64,000 nucleotides of DNA from Hypomesus transpacificus. Lineage: Eukaryota > Chordata > Actinopteri > Osmeriformes > Osmeridae. The notes beneath the pieces were generated by a model that saw nothing but the letters and a program-made list of their open reading frames with translations, did not search any database and had not been told where the DNA came from. Location of the stretch: assembly GCF_021917145.1 (NCBI RefSeq), contig NC_061083.1:1381951-1445950 (forward strand), written 5' to 3'. This document shows, one piece after another, positions 26,218 through 54,755 of the stretch. Both the position numbers and the translations under genes were made by a program. The number at the start of each line of letters is the position of its first letter. Within the stretch, counting starts at the first letter, position 1.

Positions 26218-27272
26218 TAGTGATGGGAAGTTCGGTTCTTTTTACTGATTCGGTTCTTTGAATCTCGTTCAGTAAAATGAACGAATCTTTTTTCGAGTCA
26301 TTTGTTCATTTCAGGGGGGGGGGGGGGGGGGGGGTTGGGGGCTATACGTCCACTGCAAAGGACGTATAGCCCCTATACGTCCACTGTAGGTTAGTGCATG
26401 ACATGTGCACCAGCAAATACTATTTCAAAATAAATTCCTGCATTAAAATAATGTATCATGAGTTTGTATGATTTGGTCATGTATTATCACACTAGCATTT
26501 AATTATCACGTCAAACAATTACACTGCACTAAACTGTAAGTGTAAATGTAAAGTGAAAATAACAAAACCAGTCAGTATGATGACTTGAGCGAATATCATT
26601 CATTCACGTCTTACTAAAACAGCGGCCACGCGAAAGGGAATAAGGAAACTGTTTCCTCTACTAAAAAATACAATGCGGGTCACGTGAAAAAAGGATCCAA
26701 AGACTCGTAGAAAGACCGAGTCGGGGAAGGAACTAATCATTCGTTTCCCTAGCTACAGAGCCTATGCAGGTCACGTGAAAAATGATCCAAAGACTCGTAG
26801 AAAGACCGAGTCGGGAAAGGAACGAATCGTTCGTTTCCTCTTGCTACAGCCTATACAGGTCACGTGAAAAATGATCCAAAGACTCGTAGAAAGACCGAGT
26901 CGGGAAAGGAACGAATCGTTCGTTTCCTCTAGCTACAGAGCCTATGCAGGTCACGTGAAAAATGATCCAAAGACTCGTAGAAAGACCGAGTCGGGAAAGG
27001 AACGAATCGTTCGTTTCCTTTTGCTACAGCCTATACAGGTCACGTGAAAAATGATCCAAAGACTCGTAGAAAGACCGAGTCGGGAAAGGAACGAATCGTT
27101 CGTTTCCTCTAGCTACAGAGCCTATGCAGGTCACGTGAAAAATGATCCAAAGACTCGTAGAAAGACCGAGTCGGGAAATGAACGAATCACTCGTTGAGAG
27201 GACTCGTTACTCCCGAGTCCTTATAAGGATTCGTTCAAAATGAACGAATCGTTCACGAACGACACATCACTA
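26218..27272. mobile_element. Non-autonomous hAT-type transposon with internal tandem array
   Basis: 1,055-bp element bounded by inverted ends TAGTGATG / CATCACTA and by a perfect 8-bp target duplication CTATGGAA, the hallmarks of the hAT superfamily. No transposase frame is present. Inside are a poly-G run (about 26317-26340), a hairpin arm pair around GGGGCTATACGTCC (26337-26373), and six tandem units of 89 or 91 bp (see separate entry). The element ends 133 bases before the donor of a possible AK8 leader exon. Confidence 0.88.
26674..27190 (+). repeat. Six-unit 89/91-bp tandem array (180-bp higher-order repeat)
   Basis: CACGTG recurs at 26681, 26772, 26861, 26952, 27041 and 27132, so the spacings are 91, 89, 91, 89 and 91. 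Two unit types alternate ('ctagctacagagcctatgca' versus 'ttgctacagcctataca'). Each unit also contains GACTCG...CGAGTC, an inverted pair, and AACGAATCGTTCGTT or a variant of it. The array lies inside the hAT element. Confidence 0.92.
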
Positions 27273-27735: not shown

Positions 27736-30700
27736 ATGGATGCAACTGCAAAACCGCTAAGAATCCCACCTCAAATGGGCATTTATGCCGAAAAGCATGA
27801 AATATTTGATTTGGTCCAGGTACAGTACTGTAAAGTTATGAAATAATACAGAAATTAGCTAATATGTACTTCCATGCAACACCATGGCTTTAAGCTATGG
27901 TGTCCACCCCAAACCCCCCGTAATTTGCACACTGGTGTCAAAGTAATTTACAAGCTATGTTACTGTGGGTTTGTATGTAGATACTTCTTAAAAACTTGAT
28001 GGTGGACAAGCCAGATGATCCCATTCAGCACCTGATTGGTCTTCTCAAGAGGGGCAGTGTCCAGGGTAAGAACCTCTATTGTTGTACATTAAAGGGACAA
28101 TGTATTCCAAAATCAAAAATACATATTATTGCTCTGACCTGGAGTGCTATTTATCCATCTATTATATATATATATATTTATATATATGTAAAGAAAAAAT
28201 GGGGGGATTGCCGAGTTTTGGAGATGGTGTAGTATGTCTGCCTTTTCTCGAATATACTTTGGCACTTGCCAAATGCTAAAAAGGTCTGTGGATTATCTTA
28301 AAGACAGGGTAGGTAATGTTGGGAAGCACTTTGTCATTTGCAGAAATAAACTTTACATCCTGATAGCTACCAAAAAATCTAAAGGTTTGACACTAAACAA
28401 AATTAAACATTTTTGATTGAGCACCACAATTGTAGCCTAATCTAGTTTGATTATATTCGAGAGAAGGCATAGCCTACATCTTTATGGTGGATATCTTCAA
28501 AAATCAGCAACTCACCCCAAAGCAGTCTAGACTTGAGGAATAGGAAAACAGGTAAGAGGAAAAATATAGTTTTTGTGGACCCTTTAAAGATGCTGTAAAG
28601 TGGAATTGAAAATGAGTTTTAAGTTCATCACACCACAGAAGAATGTGTTGTTAACTACCCATCCAAATTCTAATGTAAAAAAACAAAGACAAGTATGTTA
28701 AATTAGGCTTTGAAATCGTGAGAAAATCAGCAGTCTTCTCTGGTTGAGACTGGGGGGGCGTGTTACCTGAAGCATCTGAAGCTCCGCCCCCTCGAATTTA
28801 TTGAATTTAGCAACAACAGCAACACTAACTAAATCAATTGCAGATATCAGAACAGACCTACCTGCAGTCTCTGAGTGTTTTATGTGTTAATTACTTTGTC
28901 TTTGCATCATACCAGCTGAGTAACAGAATGCAACCGTCTGTGATCTGACGTGGATAGGTCGCTGTGACGTAGCTAGGTCGGGTTTCGGCTCCGCCTATAC
29001 AAAACCTGATCTGAAAACGGATGTTCAACGGTCTAGCTCCACATTTCAGGTCGACAAAGTTTTCGCGCTTTGCACATGCTTTCAGGAACTCATTTCACAC
29101 GTATGTAATGTACTGAGAAGCAAATCATGGAATTTGCTTTACAGCATCTTTAAACATCGCTTTTCAAAGTGCCATTTCATATTTACACCACTAAGTGGCA
29201 CTGTAGCTAAAGAATAATCAGAATTAAATCCCATCAGAATTTTCTCTGCTGAGGTTATGATTGAAACATCTCTAGTTGTAGGGCTAAACATACACATATT
29301 TTCATATCCCATTAATCTATTCCCTGGTCACTATGGTTTTAACAAACTTTTATTAGAAATAAAAAAGTGTGTGTCCTGTTAATTGAGGCAGACATATTAC
29401 TCAAAATGAGTGCTCAGTATCTTTGTGTTTTTGTCTTGTTCCCTTCTGTCTTAGTACCAAGAGTTATGCTGTTGGGACCTCCAGCATCAGGGAAAATAAC
29501 TATTGTAAGATGGATAATCGTTGTAATGACAGCTATCCTCAGCTGGTCTGAAAAGAGTAAAATTAGTTAATTAATTTGGTATAAACCAGAGTAAAATGTG
29601 CCTATACACTGGCAATAAAATGTAATACATTTTCAAGGGAAAATGTCAATGTTGAACGTGTTGACTGTTTGGTTGTTTGATGTTTACATGTCTAGGCCAG
29701 AAAGCTGTGTGAACACATTCAGGCCATCCACATCAATACTAGCAACCTACTGATGGAGGACACTGACCAGACCATGCGAGCGCTGCAGTACAAAGACAAA
29801 CAGCAGGTACGGCCCAACATGTGCACACACACACAAGCTCATGCATAGTCAAGTACAGCTTTTGAGGCATGGAAACAGTTGAGTGCAAGTTGGACTGTGT
29901 CCTACCCATAGAACATGAAACACAACAGCAAATCCTTGTAAAACGGAAGCACAGACAATGTTGAGTAAAAGCGCTTATTTTTGGGTTTGTTTCTGTATAT
30001 TTATGTTTATTTGACTGTTGTTGTTGTTGACAGGAGATTCCAAGTGACCTGTGGATTAAGCTGATTCAGCAGCGGCTGTCAAAGATTGACTGTGTGAGAC
30101 GGGTAAGGCCCCTCTCTCCAACCCCATTCCTTACACACATTAATACATTTACATTTAGCAGACGCTCTTATCCAGAGCAACTTACAGGAAGTACAGGGAG
30201 ATTCCCACCGAAGCAAGTAGGGTGAAGTGTCTTGCCCAAGGACACAACATTATTTGGCACGGCCTGGAATCCTCCGGGAATCGATCCGGCAACCTTCTGA
30301 TTACTAAGCCGATTCCCTAACCGCTCAGCCACCTGACACCCTAATACATAAATACACTGACCTATCTGATACACAAACAGACATGTGGTACTACAGTGCT
30401 TTAAATGATGGATGTCCTTGTCAATTGAAATGGACCCTTTACCAGTATAGGGTCCAAAAATGAAATGTGTGTGTGCATGCATGTGTGTGTTTATGCAGGG
30501 CTGGATAATGGAGGGGATCCCTCGTACTCATCAGGAGGCTTTATCCCTTCAGAAAGCTGGCATTTTCCCAGATCATGTCGGTAAGGGCCTCATACTGATT
30601 GCTGCACTGCCACCTAGTGGTGATCTGAAATCTGGGTGTAGAATTCAAGCTTTGAGGTTGTTCGTCCACGTTAGTGTATGTGTCTTCTCTGTCAGTGATG

Positions 30701-33700
30701 CTGAAGGCCCCGGATTCAGTGCTGATGGAGAGGAGCCATGGCAAAAGGATTGACCCTGTCACTGGAGGTAACATGGCCAACACTGACAGATAAAAGACTA
30801 GAAAGCTACAGAGATTGCCTAGGGGTCTTAGCCATGGGACTTCTTTCCTCTACAGATGTGTACCATGTGACCTTCATATGGCCAGAGGGCGAGGAGGTGG
30901 CTGGGCGTCTGGTGCCTGAGAAAACTGTCTTGACAGAGCAGTGTGGGAGCCAGCTGAGGCAGTACCATAGCGAGGCTCACTCCCTCGCCAGGATTTACCA
31001 CAACTGCCTCAAGACCATTGATGCCGACCAGCCTCACACTGACGTCTTTGACCAGGGTAAGAGGTTAGGTCCTGAGTCTTTGACCAGGGTAAGAGGTTAG
31101 ATCCTGAGTCTTTGACCAGGGTAAGAGGTTAGGTCCTGAGTCTTTGACCAGGGTAAGAGGTTAGGTCCTGAGTCTTTGACCAGGGTAAGAGGTTAGGTCC
31201 TGAGTCTTTGACCAGGGTAAGAGGTTAGGTCCTGAGTCTTTGACCAGGGTAAGAGGTTAGGTCCTGAGTCTTTGACCAGGGTAAGAGGTTAGGTCCTGAG
31301 TCTTTGACCAGGGTAAGAGGTTAGGTCCTGAGTCTTTGACCAGGGTAAGAGGTTAGGTCCTGAGTCTTTGACCAGGGTAAGAGGTTAGGTCCTGAGTCTT
31401 TGACCAGGGTAAGAGGTTAGGTCCTGAGTCTTTGTCTGAACACACAAAAAACAAAAGCCAGACATGAAAAGTTGATGGCCCTAGTCTTCCCTAGGTTCTG
31501 CACAGAGCCGGTCATGTTACTTTGGAGACAATTATGTATATACGTTATGTATTCATTTAACAGATGCTTTAATCTAAACCAGCACATAGTACAGGGGGAT
31601 TTGAACCGATTCAAGGTCTCTGTCAGGCGCAACAAAGCAGCCCCAAAACATGACCAAACCTCCTCCATGTTTCAGTCTATAGGTGTTCTTTTCTTTGAAT
31701 GCTTCTTTTTATTTTGTCTGCAAACACAGAGCTGATGTGACTTGCCAAGTAGCTCCAGTTTGGACTCATCTGTCCAAAGGACAATCTCCCAGAGGGATTA
31801 TGGCATGCATTTGAGCAAATTCCAAATGGCTTGTTTTGTTGTTTTTCTGTTTCTGTTATTTTTCTTTCAAAAGTAGAGTCTTCCTTGGCCTTCTTCCAGG
31901 CCACTTTTGCTCAAAAAGCGACGGACGGTGCCAACAGAGACAGCCTGTGCGCACACACACACACACACACACACAAAGAGAGGACATATTGTCCGGATAT
32001 ATCTGCTGTCGCATAATGGGTGTGAATGTCTGTTGTATTTCATTTCGCAGTGTTAATGTACGTCTTATCCAGACACCGCTCCGTGGCCCCCCACACACCC
32101 AGGATCTTGCTATTTGGACCTCCAGGCTCAGGAAAAAGCCTGCAGGCTAAACTGATCTCCCAGAAATACAACATTGTCAACCGTGAGTTTCAGATCCAAA
32201 CATTGTAGACACGGTACCTGTAGTTTGGCCACTGCTGGCTGTAGTTTGCTGGGGCTGTTGGTTCTTTGCCCTGTGTGTTCCTGCTGGTCAATTGTGGTTC
32301 GTCGTTGCGTGTCGAGGTCATGCTATATATTCGAACCCTGTCCCTTCTGGTTTGTATAGTGTGCTGTGGGGAGCTGCTAAAGGCTGTGTCAGCTGATGAG
32401 ACCAACATGGGAGAGCTGATCAAGCCCTACCTGGAGGCTGGACAAAGAGGTACCATACAACAGGTTTAGGATTATGGCTCAGGTCAGCAGCTGGACAAGG
32501 GAATAATGCAGCTGAGCTAAAATAAGATAGAAGGAGGTTAGGCCTTGAGCTGGAGAACAGGAGGGCAGGTACTGAAGGTCTCTTGACTCTAGTAACATTT
32601 AACTGATTTAACAAATCTCTCCTGAGTGGGGGGCAATTCCTGTAGCGTACCGTACCTTCCTTAAACGGTCCACAGAATAAATCGGAAACATCTATAGCAT
32701 TAGAAACTATGGTTTTAACATAATGGTTAACACACCGCAATACTAATCCTCACTCTCTATTCTCGTATATGTCTCCAGTCCCAGACAGCATGGTTCTGCA
32801 GGTCATGACAGAGCGTCTGAGCAGGCTGGACTGCACTCTGCAGGGTTGGGTCCTCCATGGCTTCCCCAAAGACCTGGAGCAGGCAGAGAAGCTGCAAGAG
32901 TCCAACTTTATTCCCAGCAGGTGAGCAGTAGGGAGTGTGAGATTGGGAGAATGATGAGTGAAATGGGTGTGGAGGGAGGTGACAGGATGGGTGAAAGGGG
33001 GCGAGGGAGCATGGAGGGATGGAAAAGGTATGAGTGTGTATGAGTAGAGGAGGGAGGTAAGGTGGAGGAGGTTGTGGATTGATCAATACGAATATTGGTT
33101 ATAGATGGCTGATCTCCTGGGTTAGATACACAGAACTATTAAAGATTAGAGAAGAGGTGTAGGAGATGTCATTTAAATTATTTTTCCCCTTATCCTATCA
33201 GAACAGGACACTACAGCACATACTCACAGTTTTCAGTACATCGAGGTTCGAGCAAGAGAAAGTTAGGTTCCAAGCTACTGGATCCAAGAAGGGAGGGGCT
33301 GTTGTGTATATCCTCTGTCCACCATAACAAACTAGAAGAGAAAGGGTACAGATGACCCCGGGCCCGGGCATCCACGATGGTCTCGGCTGTTGTGAAAAGA
33401 GGGGACAAGGAAAGGAGGAGAACAGATGCCTGTCTTGGGGACTTGTGTTGGTGTTAGGCTGTCCTTAATGTCAATAGATCCTTAATACAACAGAGAGTTA
33501 TAGTAGTAAATCCTTTTTGCCACTCTGCAAATTGAAGCTGTCTGATTTGAGAAAAGTCCACAATAACGATAATGTCCTCTTCTCTTCCTGTAGAGTTTTC
33601 TTCCTGGAGATGACAGAGGATGTGGCCCTGGAGAGGGTGAGCCTTAGGTCCATCGACCCAGTCAGCGGTGAGAGGTCAGTTTGCTTGTGATGTTGGTCAA

Positions 33701-34335
33701 TGGTTGCTGTTCCACCAAGACCTGTTTTCAAAGATCAGGCACCAGGTTGTCACTCATTTCACTTGAGCATTGCGTTGCAGCGACATGACGCAACGTGCTG
33801 CGATGTGGTGCGCGATGGGTTCTTTTTTCCCACCAATTCATTTTCGTCATGAAAAGTCTCGCATCTTACTGCAATGCCAGAACCCTCAAATAAAATGAGT
33901 AACATCTGAATGATAGTGTAACCAGTGGTTAAATACGAAAGTGCACATAGAAGAGAAACCTTCAGCTGCACCAGTCCTGCCTTAATCATCTATGTCTGTC
34001 TATAACTTGTCCTCCTGATCTCTGTACAAGTCTGCAGTACTAATACATTTCCATCAATGGCCCATTCTCCTGCCAGGTATCACACAATGTACAAGCCAGC
34101 TCCCAACCCAAAGGTCCAGGCCCGCCTGCAGGCCAACCCCTTGGACAGTAAAGCCCAGCTGCTGCAGCGCTTGAAGGAGTACTGGGCCGATGTCCCGGTC
34201 CTGCAGAGCCTCTACCCTGAAGCCATCCACATCAACGCCGATCAGGACCCACAAACCGTGTTTGAGTCCCTGGAAAGCCGCTTGGTGGGGCGGCTGCCCA
34301 ACATCCCGACAGTGCATGGTCAGGGGGAAGACTGA
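27736..34335 (+). CDS. ak8: Adenylate kinase 8 (tandem adenylate kinase), 13 coding exons
   Basis: Nucleoside monophosphate kinase with two consecutive adenylate-kinase domains, found in cilia-bearing tissues in vertebrates. Coding exons: 27736-27819, 27981-28065, 29455-29504, 29696-29806, 30034-30102, 30499-30580, 30696-30767, 30856-31056, 32051-32182, 32360-32449, 32779-32920, 33594-33674, 34077-34335. Total 485 aa, against about 479 in human. The start [12 protein letters not shown] matches the family N-terminus; the acceptor lies just before it. Domain 1 has Walker A GPPASGKI (64-71), where the family has Thr after Lys, then [10 protein letters not shown] and KRIDPVTG (lid entry). Domain 2 has a normal Walker A GPPGSGKS (274-281), then [17 protein letters not shown] and [13 protein letters not shown] 32-bp minisatellite overlaps the end of the eighth coding exon. 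The gene is convergent with RAB14. Confidence 0.95.
28066..29454 (+). other. AK8 intron between coding exons 2 and 3
   Basis: A 1.4-kb intron containing an (AT)n run near 28163-28187 and AT-rich, possibly repeat-derived sequence. No coding exon seen. Confidence 0.6.
30145..30340 (-). mobile_element. tRNA-derived SINE in an AK8 intron
   Basis: Same family as 23970-24150, in better condition. The minus strand reads a tRNA-like head (GTGGCTGAGCGGTTAGGGAA, A box; CCGGATCGATTCCCGG, B box) and a body ending 'ggataagagcgtctgctaaa'. Intronic, antisense to AK8. Confidence 0.88.
31044..31434 (+). repeat. 32-bp minisatellite made of copied AK8 splice donors
   Basis: Twelve full 32-bp units starting at 31044, 31076, 31108 and so on to 31396, plus a 7-base partial unit. 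Units are nearly identical; one carries a G-to-A change (ttagatcc). The first unit begins inside coding exon 8 (GTCTTTGACCAG encodes V-F-D-Q) and spans its donor, so every unit repeats CCAG|GGTAAGAGG. All but the first 13 bases of the array are intronic if the first donor is used. Confidence 0.97.
31550..32050. repeat. Degraded interspersed repeats in an AK8 intron
   Basis: A worn SINE/L2-tail-like piece (tattcatttaacagatgctt) is followed by about 300 bases reading like a dispersed fish repeat (for example 'gactcatctgtccaaaggac'). A (CA)n microsatellite at about 31953-31974 follows. The class of the middle part is not determined. Confidence 0.5.
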
Positions 34336-50907: not shown

Positions 50908-51513
50908 TCACTTCTTTGGGGTTTTTCTATTGTGAACATGCAGGTGACTCTTCAGCTGGCCATTTGTTTTACCTGAATAGTCACAGAGTTCACAGCTGTA
51001 GGGCTTCTCTCCAGTGTGGATCCTGCTGTGCACTGTTAGATTGCTAGCATGGCTAAAGGTTTTACCACAGAGGTAACAGACGTAGGGCTTCTCTCCAGTG
51101 TGGATCATGCGGTGAGTTCTGAAATGGCCAGCGTGGCTAAAGGTTTTACCACAGAGGTCACAGCTGTAGGGCTTTTCTCCAGTGTGGACCCTGCTGTGAA
51201 TTGTTAAATTGGTAACATGCCTAAAGGTTTTACCACAGAGGTCACAAATGTGTGGCTTCTCTCCAGTGTGGATCCTGCGGTGAGTTCTCAAAGTGGAAGC
51301 ATGGCTAAAGGTTTTACCACAGAGGTCGCAGCTGTAGGGATTTACTCCAGTGTGTATTCTGCGGTGATCTGTGAAAATGCTAGCATGGGTAAAGGTTTTT
51401 CCACAGAGGTCACAGCTGTAGGGCTTCTCTCCAGTGTGGATCCTCATGTGGTTTTTGAGGCTAGTGGATGAGGAAAGGCTCTTCCCACATGCATCACAGT
51501 GATGTGTGTCCAT
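50908..51513 (-). CDS. C2H2 zinc-finger protein 1, seven fingers
   Basis: 201-aa protein that is almost entirely C2H2 zinc fingers, a likely sequence-specific nuclear DNA-binding factor. Seven fingers with TGEKP linkers: the first ([21 protein letters not shown], 51495 downwards) and last ([21 protein letters not shown]) differ from the middle five, which share CDLCGKTF or CYLCGKTF. No KRAB, SCAN or BTB domain is visible. The ATG at 51513 is preceded two codons upstream by an in-frame TGA, so it begins the exon's coding part. Two leader exons can be proposed from donors at about 51993 (AAG|GTACGTAC) and 52236 (AAAG|GTACGTGC). It is a tandem paralogue of the gene at 53646-54503. I cannot assign an orthologue. 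Confidence 0.88.
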   Translation of the reverse strand: MDTHHCDACGKSLSSSTSLKNHMRIHTGEKPYSCDLCGKTFTHASIFTDHRRIHTGVNPYSCDLCGKTFSHASTLRTHRRIHTGEKPHICDLCGKTFRHVTNLTIHSRVHTGEKPYSCDLCGKTFSHAGHFRTHRMIHTGEKPYVCYLCGKTFSHASNLTVHSRIHTGEKPYSCELCDYSGKTNGQLKSHLHVHNRKTPKK

Positions 51514-51979
51514 TACTCAGCTTTCTCTTTGCACTCTGTCTAGTCTCCCTGTATCCTGTCTTGTATCTAGTCTCTGGAAGCTTGTTTTTCTCTCTGGTTG
51601 ATCCTCTGTCTGGTTACTGCTGTTTCTAGTTGAGACTTTCAATTGTTGAGTCTCTCTGGTCGAGTCTCTGTAGTCTCTCTGGAGCCTTAAGGTGTCCCTC
51701 TGTCTAATCTCCGCCCATGATCAAGTATGATTGGCCAGTAAGGGATCTGGAAGAAACAGTTCTAAGTTAATGAGAACTCAGCTTTAACATATAAAATAAC
51801 TATTTTGTCCGTGTCCATTTTGCAAATGTAATGTTGATCATTTGGTGAGGTGTATGTTTCTCAAGGGGGGGTTCACAATGACTGAAGAGATAGTGTGCTG
51901 GATTCTCTAGCCTATGGCTGCAGTGGGAACATTCCGTAATTTATTTATTTTGTTGTAACTATCTGTTTGTTAAGTGCTG

Positions 51980-52829: not shown

Positions 52830-54755
52830 CAGTTCACTGAAGAACAAATTAACTCGTTCGACAAACCTACCATAGCCTACTACACCATCCAAATCCGGCA
52901 GATCATGGCCGGTGCCGATTGCATTCTACTGAAACAAATGGACTGAAAATTGTAAGAATTTCACATACCATGATATATAGCCTACCGTTACCGTCCGTGC
53001 TACAAAATTATACTGTGATGACGTAACTCTTAGGACAGAACAGCCCTGTTTGTCATCAGGCTATCATCTGGTAAATAGGACAATTAACCCCTTTGTTTCA
53101 GAACCATCCAGTCTCTTGACCCTTGACTTGTAAATGTAAATACAGAGAAGTGAGTCCATGTTCTTCAACAGTGGATAAAGATAAGTGTGCATTGGACGAC
53201 TGATCATCAAATTCAAATCACATTTATTTGTTTAACCCTTTTTACAAACAATGTCACAGAGGGCTTCACATATGCTCGTAGAACTGCCCCTCAACCAACC
53301 TAAACCCTCAAGGAAGACAAGGATTTTTTTTTTGAAAAATAGAAGAAAACTTTGGAGGTTTCCAAAGACAGTTGTTGAAAGAGAGGTGCAAAACACAGGC
53401 TGTTTTGTCCCTCGCCCTGTTTTTATGCGTGTTCTGTCTTGTGTGTTTGTCTAGTGTTACGGCCTTTCCCCCTAGACAAGGTTTGTAATAGTCAAAGATC
53501 AATAAAAGTTAAATGACAAAATGGGAGATAGCAGTCTAACAGCAGAGGGATTGGGATTTTGTAGTTGTAGGCCGGTTATTCTTCCAGCTGTGGGTCATAC
53601 AGAAGTTCTCAGGTGGTGACTGCTGGGACAGCTTGGACCCAGACATCACTGCTTTGGAGTTTCTCTATTGTGAACTTGCAGATGACTCTTCAGATGGTCA
53701 TTTGTTTTACCTGAATAGTCACAGAGGTCACAGCTGTAGGGCCTCTCTCCAGTGTGGATCCTGCTGTGAACTGTTAAATTGCTAGAATGGCTAAAGGTTT
53801 TACCACAGAGGTAACAAACGTAGGGCTTCTCTCCAGTGTGGATCCTGCGGTGAATTGTGAAATGGCCAGCGTGGTTAAAGGTTTTACCACAGAGGTCACA
53901 GCTGTAGGGCCTCTCTCCAGTGTGGATCCTGCTGTGATCTATCAAACTGCTACCACGGCTAAAGGTTTTACCACAAAGGTCACAGCAGTAGGGCTTCTCT
54001 CCAGTGTGGATCATTCTATGAGTCCTGAATTGGCTAGCCCGGCTAAAGGCTTTACCACAGAGGTCACAGCTGTAGGGCTTCTCTCCAGTGTGGATTCTGC
54101 AGTGATCTGTAAAATTTCTATTGCTGCTAAAGGTTTTACCACATAGGTCACATCTGTAGGGCTTCTCCTCAGTGTGCATCCTGTGGTGAGTTCTGAAATG
54201 GCAAGCGTGGCTAAAGGTTTTACCACAGAGGTCACAGCTGTAGGGCTTCTCTCCAGTGTGGATCCTGCTGTGAACTGTCAAACTGCTAGCATGGGTAAAG
54301 GTTTTACCACAGAGGTCACAGCTGTAGGGCTTCTCTCCAGTGTGGATCCTTCTATGAATTCTGAAATGGCTAGCCTGGCTAAAGGTTTTACCACAGTGGT
54401 CACAGCTGTAGGGCTTCTCTCCAGTGTGGATCATCATGTGCTTCTTGAGGTTACTGGATGAGGAAAGGCTTTTCCCACATGTAGCACATTGATGTGTCTC
54501 CATAACTCAGCTCTCTCTTTGTTCTGTCTGGTCTCTCTGGATCCTGTCTTGTATCAAGTCTCTGGAAGCTTGTTTCTCTCTTGTGGATCCTCTGTCTAGT
54601 TACTGCTGTTTCTGGTTGAGTCTCTCTCTGTAGTCTCTCTGGTTGAGTCTATGTAGTCTCTCTGGAGCCTTAAGGTGTCTTCTTTGTCTAGTCTCCGCCC
54701 ATGATCAAGTATGATTGGCCAGTAGGGGATCTGGAAGAAACAGTTCCAAGTTAAT
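52830..54755 (-). repeat. Zinc-finger duplication unit, copy 2 (body and 3' flank)
   Basis: Homologous to 49560-51760. The similarity runs through the 3' flank, the ORF and about 250 bases upstream of it, and stops abruptly after 'gatctggaagaaacagttcc' at about 54750, where unrelated repeat-rich sequence begins. Confidence 0.82.
53646..54503 (-). CDS. C2H2 zinc-finger protein 2, ten fingers
   Basis: 285-aa paralogue of the preceding zinc-finger gene, same strand, 2.1 kb away. Ten C2H2 fingers joined by TGEKP or TGERP linkers (one TEEKP). The first finger ([21 protein letters not shown]) and the last ([21 protein letters not shown]) align with those of copy 1, so the difference is three extra or lost middle fingers. 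Finger 5 has a divergent helix ([13 protein letters not shown]). The ATG at 54503 has an in-frame TGA two codons upstream. No effector domain is visible in this exon. Its leader may lie at 61.1-61.4 kb, across a transposon cluster. DNA-binding residues differ between the paralogues, so their targets probably differ. Confidence 0.88.

Follow-up and report, generated by a model that had tools for sequence, protein, structure and literature searches.

The 5' splice site of AK8 exon 8 in Hypomesus transpacificus lies inside the first unit of a minisatellite that sets out 12 copies of it in a row. What is new here is that the same genome bears donor arrays on other genes, including the gene for an essential RNA polymerase subunit. 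We believe the AK8 array is probably a young, nearly neutral minisatellite, and that the donor nearest the exon, donor 1 below, is the one in use.

The gene lies in the window, the stretch of 64,000 nucleotides that was analysed, and coordinates given without a contig are positions in it. The 13-exon model is free of stops. Its residues 1-475 align with residues 20-495 of AK8 in PDB 9fqr (E 1.7e-146) with one gap of one amino acid, and the alignment is gap-free at the exon 8/9 junction. Pfam ADK matches two stretches (E 1.9e-47), the two adenylate kinase domains. Judged by these alignments the gene is the AK8 orthologue, colinear with known AK8 over its full length, and model and alignment together uphold the gene and exon that the sequence-only reading had named. 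AK8 is described as belonging to the radial spokes, and in mice ciliary motility is affected when it is lost (PMC12541429). A retrocopy was sought as a record of the splice actually used; exons 8-9 were found at one locus in the genome, with no retrocopy or processed copy. The features are these:

27736-34335, forward strand: AK8 coding gene (13-exon model, 485 amino acids; PDB 9fqr alignment; Pfam ADK)
30856-31056, forward strand: AK8 exon 8, 201 nt, phase 1 out, its last 13 nt being the exonic part of unit 1 (PDB 9fqr match)
31044-31434, forward strand: minisatellite, 12 x GTCTTTGACCAGGGTAAGAGGTTAGGTCCTGA (G>A once, in unit 2) plus 7 nt
31044-31050, forward strand: GTCTTTG direct repeat, exonic copy, a possible slippage seed
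31428-31434, forward strand: GTCTTTG, the intronic copy that ends the array (sequence)
31057-31062, forward strand: donor 1 (GTAAGA), in the model the sole donor yielding full-length AK8
31089-31414, forward strand: 11 extra donors with the same U1 energy as donor 1 (-8.9 kcal/mol), starting in the model at 31089, 31121, 31153, 31185, 31217, 31249, 31281, 31313, 31345, 31377 and 31409
31098-31100, forward strand: in-frame TAG, carried by every transcript spliced at donor 3 or beyond; the array's only variant base (G>A) is 31100
31057-32050, forward strand: intron 8, 994 nt from donor 1 and 642 nt from donor 12
32051-32182, forward strand: AK8 exon 9, 132 nt, in frame, coding the second P-loop GPPGSGKS

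The array is real. TRF calls it at 31039-31434 (12.3 copies, 99% match, score 776), and 11 of its 12 32-bp units are identical. The site GACCAGGGTAAGAGG occurs 12 times on the forward strand of the scanned stretch and 0 times on the reverse. The exact unit has 11 occurrences in the 437-Mb genome (376 contigs), all of them at the AK8 locus, unit 2 being the variant. This near-identity suggests youth or homogenisation, going by the letters of the units. The extent, copy number and near-identity given in the sequence-only reading are thus borne out, and so is its claim that the unit crosses the exon-intron junction: the real end of exon 8, at 31056, falls inside unit 1. The donor itself was misplaced by one base. 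It was written CCAG/GGTAAGAGG (the slash marks the exon end), but a GT donor must be CCAGG/GTAAGAGG, that is CCAGG/GTAAGA, one base later.

Three other observations concern the same gene and two more the same window. The first AK8 P-loop (29455-29504) departs from the GPPASGKTTI of AK8 in the PDB, the usual S or T after the lysine being lost. Exon 2 ends (28061-28071) in CCAGGGTAAGA, the 11-mer that also ends exon 8; no array stands there, which makes it a natural single-copy comparison. TRF places an array with a 91-bp (or 180-bp) unit at 26673-27195, a short way before the AK8 start codon. On the reverse strand, 50908-51516 and 53646-54506 are open frames made of C2H2 zinc-finger repeats in 84-bp units.

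All 12 units carry AGG/GTAAGA, the U1 duplex energy is equal for all 12, and these are the 12 best GT sites within exon 8 and intron 8. The products are not equal. When the model is computed for every donor, only donor 1 gives the intact protein. Donor 2 adds 32 nt and leads to a stop on entry to exon 9, at amino acid 264, while donors 3-12 all include the TAG in unit 2, at amino acid 266. The frame arithmetic offered before (32 is not a multiple of 3, so the next donors shift the frame) holds, and the read-through TAG it foresaw has been located. The remark that only every third donor keeps phase is right as arithmetic but has no bearing on the product, since the phase-keeping donors 4, 7 and 10 already include the TAG. 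The length of exon 8 would rise from 201 nt with donor 1 to 553 nt with donor 12. All 11 extra-donor products are predicted targets of nonsense-mediated decay because their stops, at amino acids 264-266, precede the last exon junction by 442-756 nt. This outcome has a general side: one of the three frames of AGGTAAG contains TAA, so in a donor array whose unit length is not divisible by 3 the reading frame runs into a stop by about the third unit. Of the eight arrays whose frame was followed (AK8, POLR2B, GABRA, USP and MCT10 and, less certainly, ZNF512-like, L051 and L053), all have an in-frame stop 1-93 nt beyond donor 1; the frame after each late donor was computed for AK8 alone.

How might such an array begin? 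Exon 8 ends in GACGTCTTTGACCAGG, and GTCTTTG appears again right after the last unit. Slippage or unequal exchange between the GTCTTTG near the exon end and the one at intron +20 to +26 could have copied the final 13 bases of the exon together with the donor and the start of the intron, and this unit would then have multiplied to 12. As the first copy is the genuine end of the exon, exon 8 keeps its sequence. Seeding on the junction, as proposed earlier, fits the 7-bp repeat that exon end and intron have in common. Repeats of this kind are nothing unusual, however: 2 of 11 other AK8 junctions share 8 bp and 10.9% of 2000 random positions share at least 7 bp. We therefore reject microhomology as a special seed. 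Young minisatellites also occur at loci besides AK8. A 200-kb sample of 20 loci, taken at the 1.0-Mb position of contigs C1-C20, where the density may be atypical, holds 58 arrays (period 15-120, at least 4 copies, TRF score at least 100), and the 64-kb window holds 4. Two arrays of the sample have a 100% match and at least 10 copies: L013:4562-4915 (34 bp x 10.4) and L025:2274-3080 (54 bp x 14.9). Eight of the 58 are donor-like; no exon was seen by eye at their edges, one having no upstream sequence and one mostly N upstream.

The genome was surveyed for donor arrays in two ways. The first set consists of three GGTAAG in a row at minisatellite spacing, with 2528 overlapping matches versus 683 for the backward word. 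Upstream edges were fetched for 10 arrays on C1 and the first 2 on C2, among the matches listed, which reach from C1 into the first part of C2. On C1, two of the 10 sit on real donors, those of a GABA-A alpha subunit and, after a further fetch, of POLR2B; one further array adjoins a teneurin exon (E 2e-32) at the acceptor end, and the other 9 of the 12 edges showed no exon by eye. From 2 on the 12.5-Mb C1 there may be of the order of 70 GGTAAG donor arrays genome-wide, a very rough figure. The second set takes CAGGTAAG in a row, and 29 edges (13 + 16) were fetched from the matches listed, a part of all arrays; 27 were reached, L071 and L074 being the exceptions. Six of the 27 adjoin exons confirmed in databases (POLR2B, MCT10, DNAH7, DOCK, sushi, USP), one is weak (ZNF512-like, Pfam 0.0075, below the cut-off), four are open frames without a match (L051, L053, L072, L075), and the remaining 16 showed no donor-ending exon by eye. 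The two sets together make 40 different arrays, POLR2B being common to both, with 7 confirmed in addition to AK8. They are as follows, with the weak case last:

C1:2209500-2212200 (L037, L043, L078), minus strand: POLR2B exon and 73 donor-like sites; PDB match
C1:248950-250300 (L031, L061), minus strand: GABA-A alpha exon and array; 52/52 residues identical to alpha-2
L049: MCT10 exon and donor array; PDB E 8e-20, no Pfam match
L077: DNAH7 exon and donor array; PDB E 2e-22, no Pfam match
L064: DOCK exon and donor array; PDB DOCK6 E 4e-11, in Pfam an unrelated weak match only
L065: sushi-gene exon and donor array; Pfam 1.8e-9
L046: USP exon and donor array; Pfam UCH 4e-6, above the cut-off, no PDB match at E 0.01
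L050: ZNF512-like exon and donor array; Pfam 0.0075 (weak)

POLR2B is the strongest case among them. Its exon, with 60/62 residues identical in the PDB match (E 2e-34) and a Pfam match below the cut-off, ends at C1:2212000 on the minus strand in ...AHQARAGVSQ and is followed by 73 CAG/GT[AG] sites. All 72 of the 72 spacings are exactly 29 bp, and the sites read GTAAGA 33 times, GTAGGA 39 times and GTAGAA once. The intron measures 2353 nt, of which the array takes up about 90%, and the exon after it opens with GTGTTGAACCG, VLNR. The genome search found a single POLR2B locus; the only match elsewhere, on C14, is 43% identical. Of the later sites, 32 are as strong as donor 1. Strong donors number 12/36 in the first half and 20/35 in the second, one site of another type being set aside (P = 0.058), so we do not claim that they are fewer near donor 1. 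The GABRA array (TRF 20 bp x 44.8, 89% match) has an in-frame TAA 5 nt past donor 1. The USP, MCT10, ZNF512-like, DOCK, sushi and DNAH7 arrays show from 3 to at least 9 donors. In none of the eight arrays measured for strength (six confirmed genes, ZNF512-like and L051) is donor 1 the only strongest site.

Some arrays stand in other relations to exons. Those on the acceptor side are the confirmed teneurin array (L034) and, by eye, a collagen-like one (L054) and a PNPLA6/7-like one (L076); the last has no Pfam match, runs over more than 3 kb, and its 39-bp unit seems to span the acceptor. At L055 (C10:13399760-13400400, minus strand), beside a KCNN-like ion channel exon (Pfam Ion_trans_2), a CAG/GTAAGG array begins in the intron shortly past the real donor, not on it.

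Do arrays prefer donor words? Triples of CAGGTAAG give 333 matches versus 52 for the backward word, matches within one array not being independent. Counted by arrays on C1-C9 there are 12 versus 3, set against 14515 versus 10748 single words (P = 0.062), and on this per-array value we do not claim a preference. By last letter, T has 16 matches versus 22 in the control, no excess, while G has 57 versus 7 and C, among the matches listed, 113 versus 0. As a single word, CAGGTAAG has 3767 more occurrences than its backward form, out of 14515, and as a crude estimate roughly 26% of them may thus be real donors. Confirmed or weak exon ends make up 7/27 of the arrays (26%), or up to 11/27 with the unverified frames. 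Arrays therefore lie on donors about as often as single words seem to do, which is no proof of preferred seeding and equally no sign of strong selection against multiplying a donor.

The kind of structure is already known, since donor-spanning minisatellites occur in the human genes ABCA7 and IFI6. The IFI6 unit is 12 bp, so its alternative donors can keep the frame and make isoforms, whereas every extra AK8 donor is predicted to be non-productive; Turri et al. in 1995 reportedly described this minisatellite as giving multiple splice donors. The human IFI6 (6-16, G1P3) minisatellite, at an exon end like that of AK8, supplies several donors, and downstream repeat units are used (PMC4526556). 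The ABCA7 intron 18 VNTR (De Roeck et al. 2018, PMC5954066) has a 25-bp unit that opens with the two bases of the exon 18 donor. As in AK8, the unit contains the 5' splice site, the array starts at the exon end, and the unit length is not a multiple of 3, so that use of the next donor shifts the frame. Unlike AK8, it starts at the GT itself, is GC-rich, runs from about 12 to 427 units and is disease-associated; the AK8 unit is 32 bp with 13 exon bases, and its copy number is known here from one assembly. Alternative tandem 5' splice sites (BMC Genomics 2008, PMC2423196) resemble AK8 in that neighbouring donors of one exon compete, but they are two overlapping or nearby sites rather than an array of identical copies. 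Among the matches listed in the open literature searched, there is no report of the AK8 donor array, nor of a class of donor-spanning arrays in a fish genome.

Our proposal is that donor 1 would be used nearly always. The simplest cause may be exon definition, in which the exon 8 acceptor pairs with the donor closest to it, at 201 nt. Eleven of the 12 AK8 units contain UAGG, the hnRNP A1 core. This motif could help donor 1, since intron-distal donors are activated by hnRNP A1 and intron-proximal ones by SRSF1 (PMC5585400). If donors 2-12 are used now and then, the result would be premature stops and removal by decay. The array might also buffer splicing, make exon 8 ends noisy or compete for U1, as the sequence-only reading suggested. 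Multiplying a donor is apparently tolerated, since other genes of this genome show the arrangement too. Several things count against this explanation, among them the ordinariness of the seed repeat and the accessibility figures below. Eperon in 1993 is said to have found that when equal donors are both occupied the intron-proximal one is favoured, which is the opposite of donor 1. The ABCA7 array is not neutral, so such arrays need not be. RNA structure was considered as a reason for donor 1 and rejected: the array folds better than 100 shuffles (z -4.42), but accessibility singles out donor 1 at none of three window settings, and at one of them donor 1 is the least accessible of the 12 (0.005 versus 0.012-0.047).

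The best of the alternatives, though an unlikely one, is that the array is a length-dependent regulator, more units lowering productive AK8 through extra donors that feed decay or through skipping of exon 9. Skipping would cost 44 amino acids, including the second P-loop, and leave 441. In ABCA7, longer alleles have lower expression and more exon 19 skipping, and in one brain region alternative transcripts exceed the canonical one in 90% of cases (PMC5954066). The ABCA7 data speak against the idea as well: retention of one unit is 2 +/- 1% of measured isoforms and is unaffected by length, and the 12 units of AK8 are about equal to the smallest ABCA7 allele, of about 12 (PMC5954066).

That donor 12 or other late donors dominate, making this allele a strong AK8 hypomorph, would surprise us greatly. 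The equal U1 pairing across 12 donors and the in-vitro rule for equal sites both speak for it. The one POLR2B locus found, with 32 later sites as strong as the first, could hardly lose most of its product, donor 12 would give the 553-nt exon, and unit retention is rare in ABCA7 (PMC5954066). Least probable of all is an assembly artefact, be it in the repeat number or in the array as a whole: errors are common at tandem repeats, but the window is without N, the contig is at least 1.44 Mb, any long read spans 391 nt, unit 2 has its private variant, and arrays of the same design with other units stand at other loci.

With donor 1 in use at AK8 as the preferred reading, the wider claim is that minisatellites arise again and again at the 5' splice sites of functioning genes here and that the exon-nearest of equal donors is still picked; on this we are evenly divided. 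The recurrence on essential genes is the part of most interest to splicing specialists. Experiments on how a site is chosen among equal 5' splice sites usually employ two-site test RNAs, while these arrays, with 3 to 73 donor-like sites on real genes, are a natural in-vivo test. If donor 1 dominates, distance to the acceptor and not site strength sets the choice. There may also be a blind spot, in that donor-spanning VNTRs like that of ABCA7, where expression and splicing are altered, may be common. If the wider claim is true, donor multiplication would be near-neutral in vertebrates, and the preference for intron-proximal donors seen in short test RNAs would fail in vivo over such arrays.
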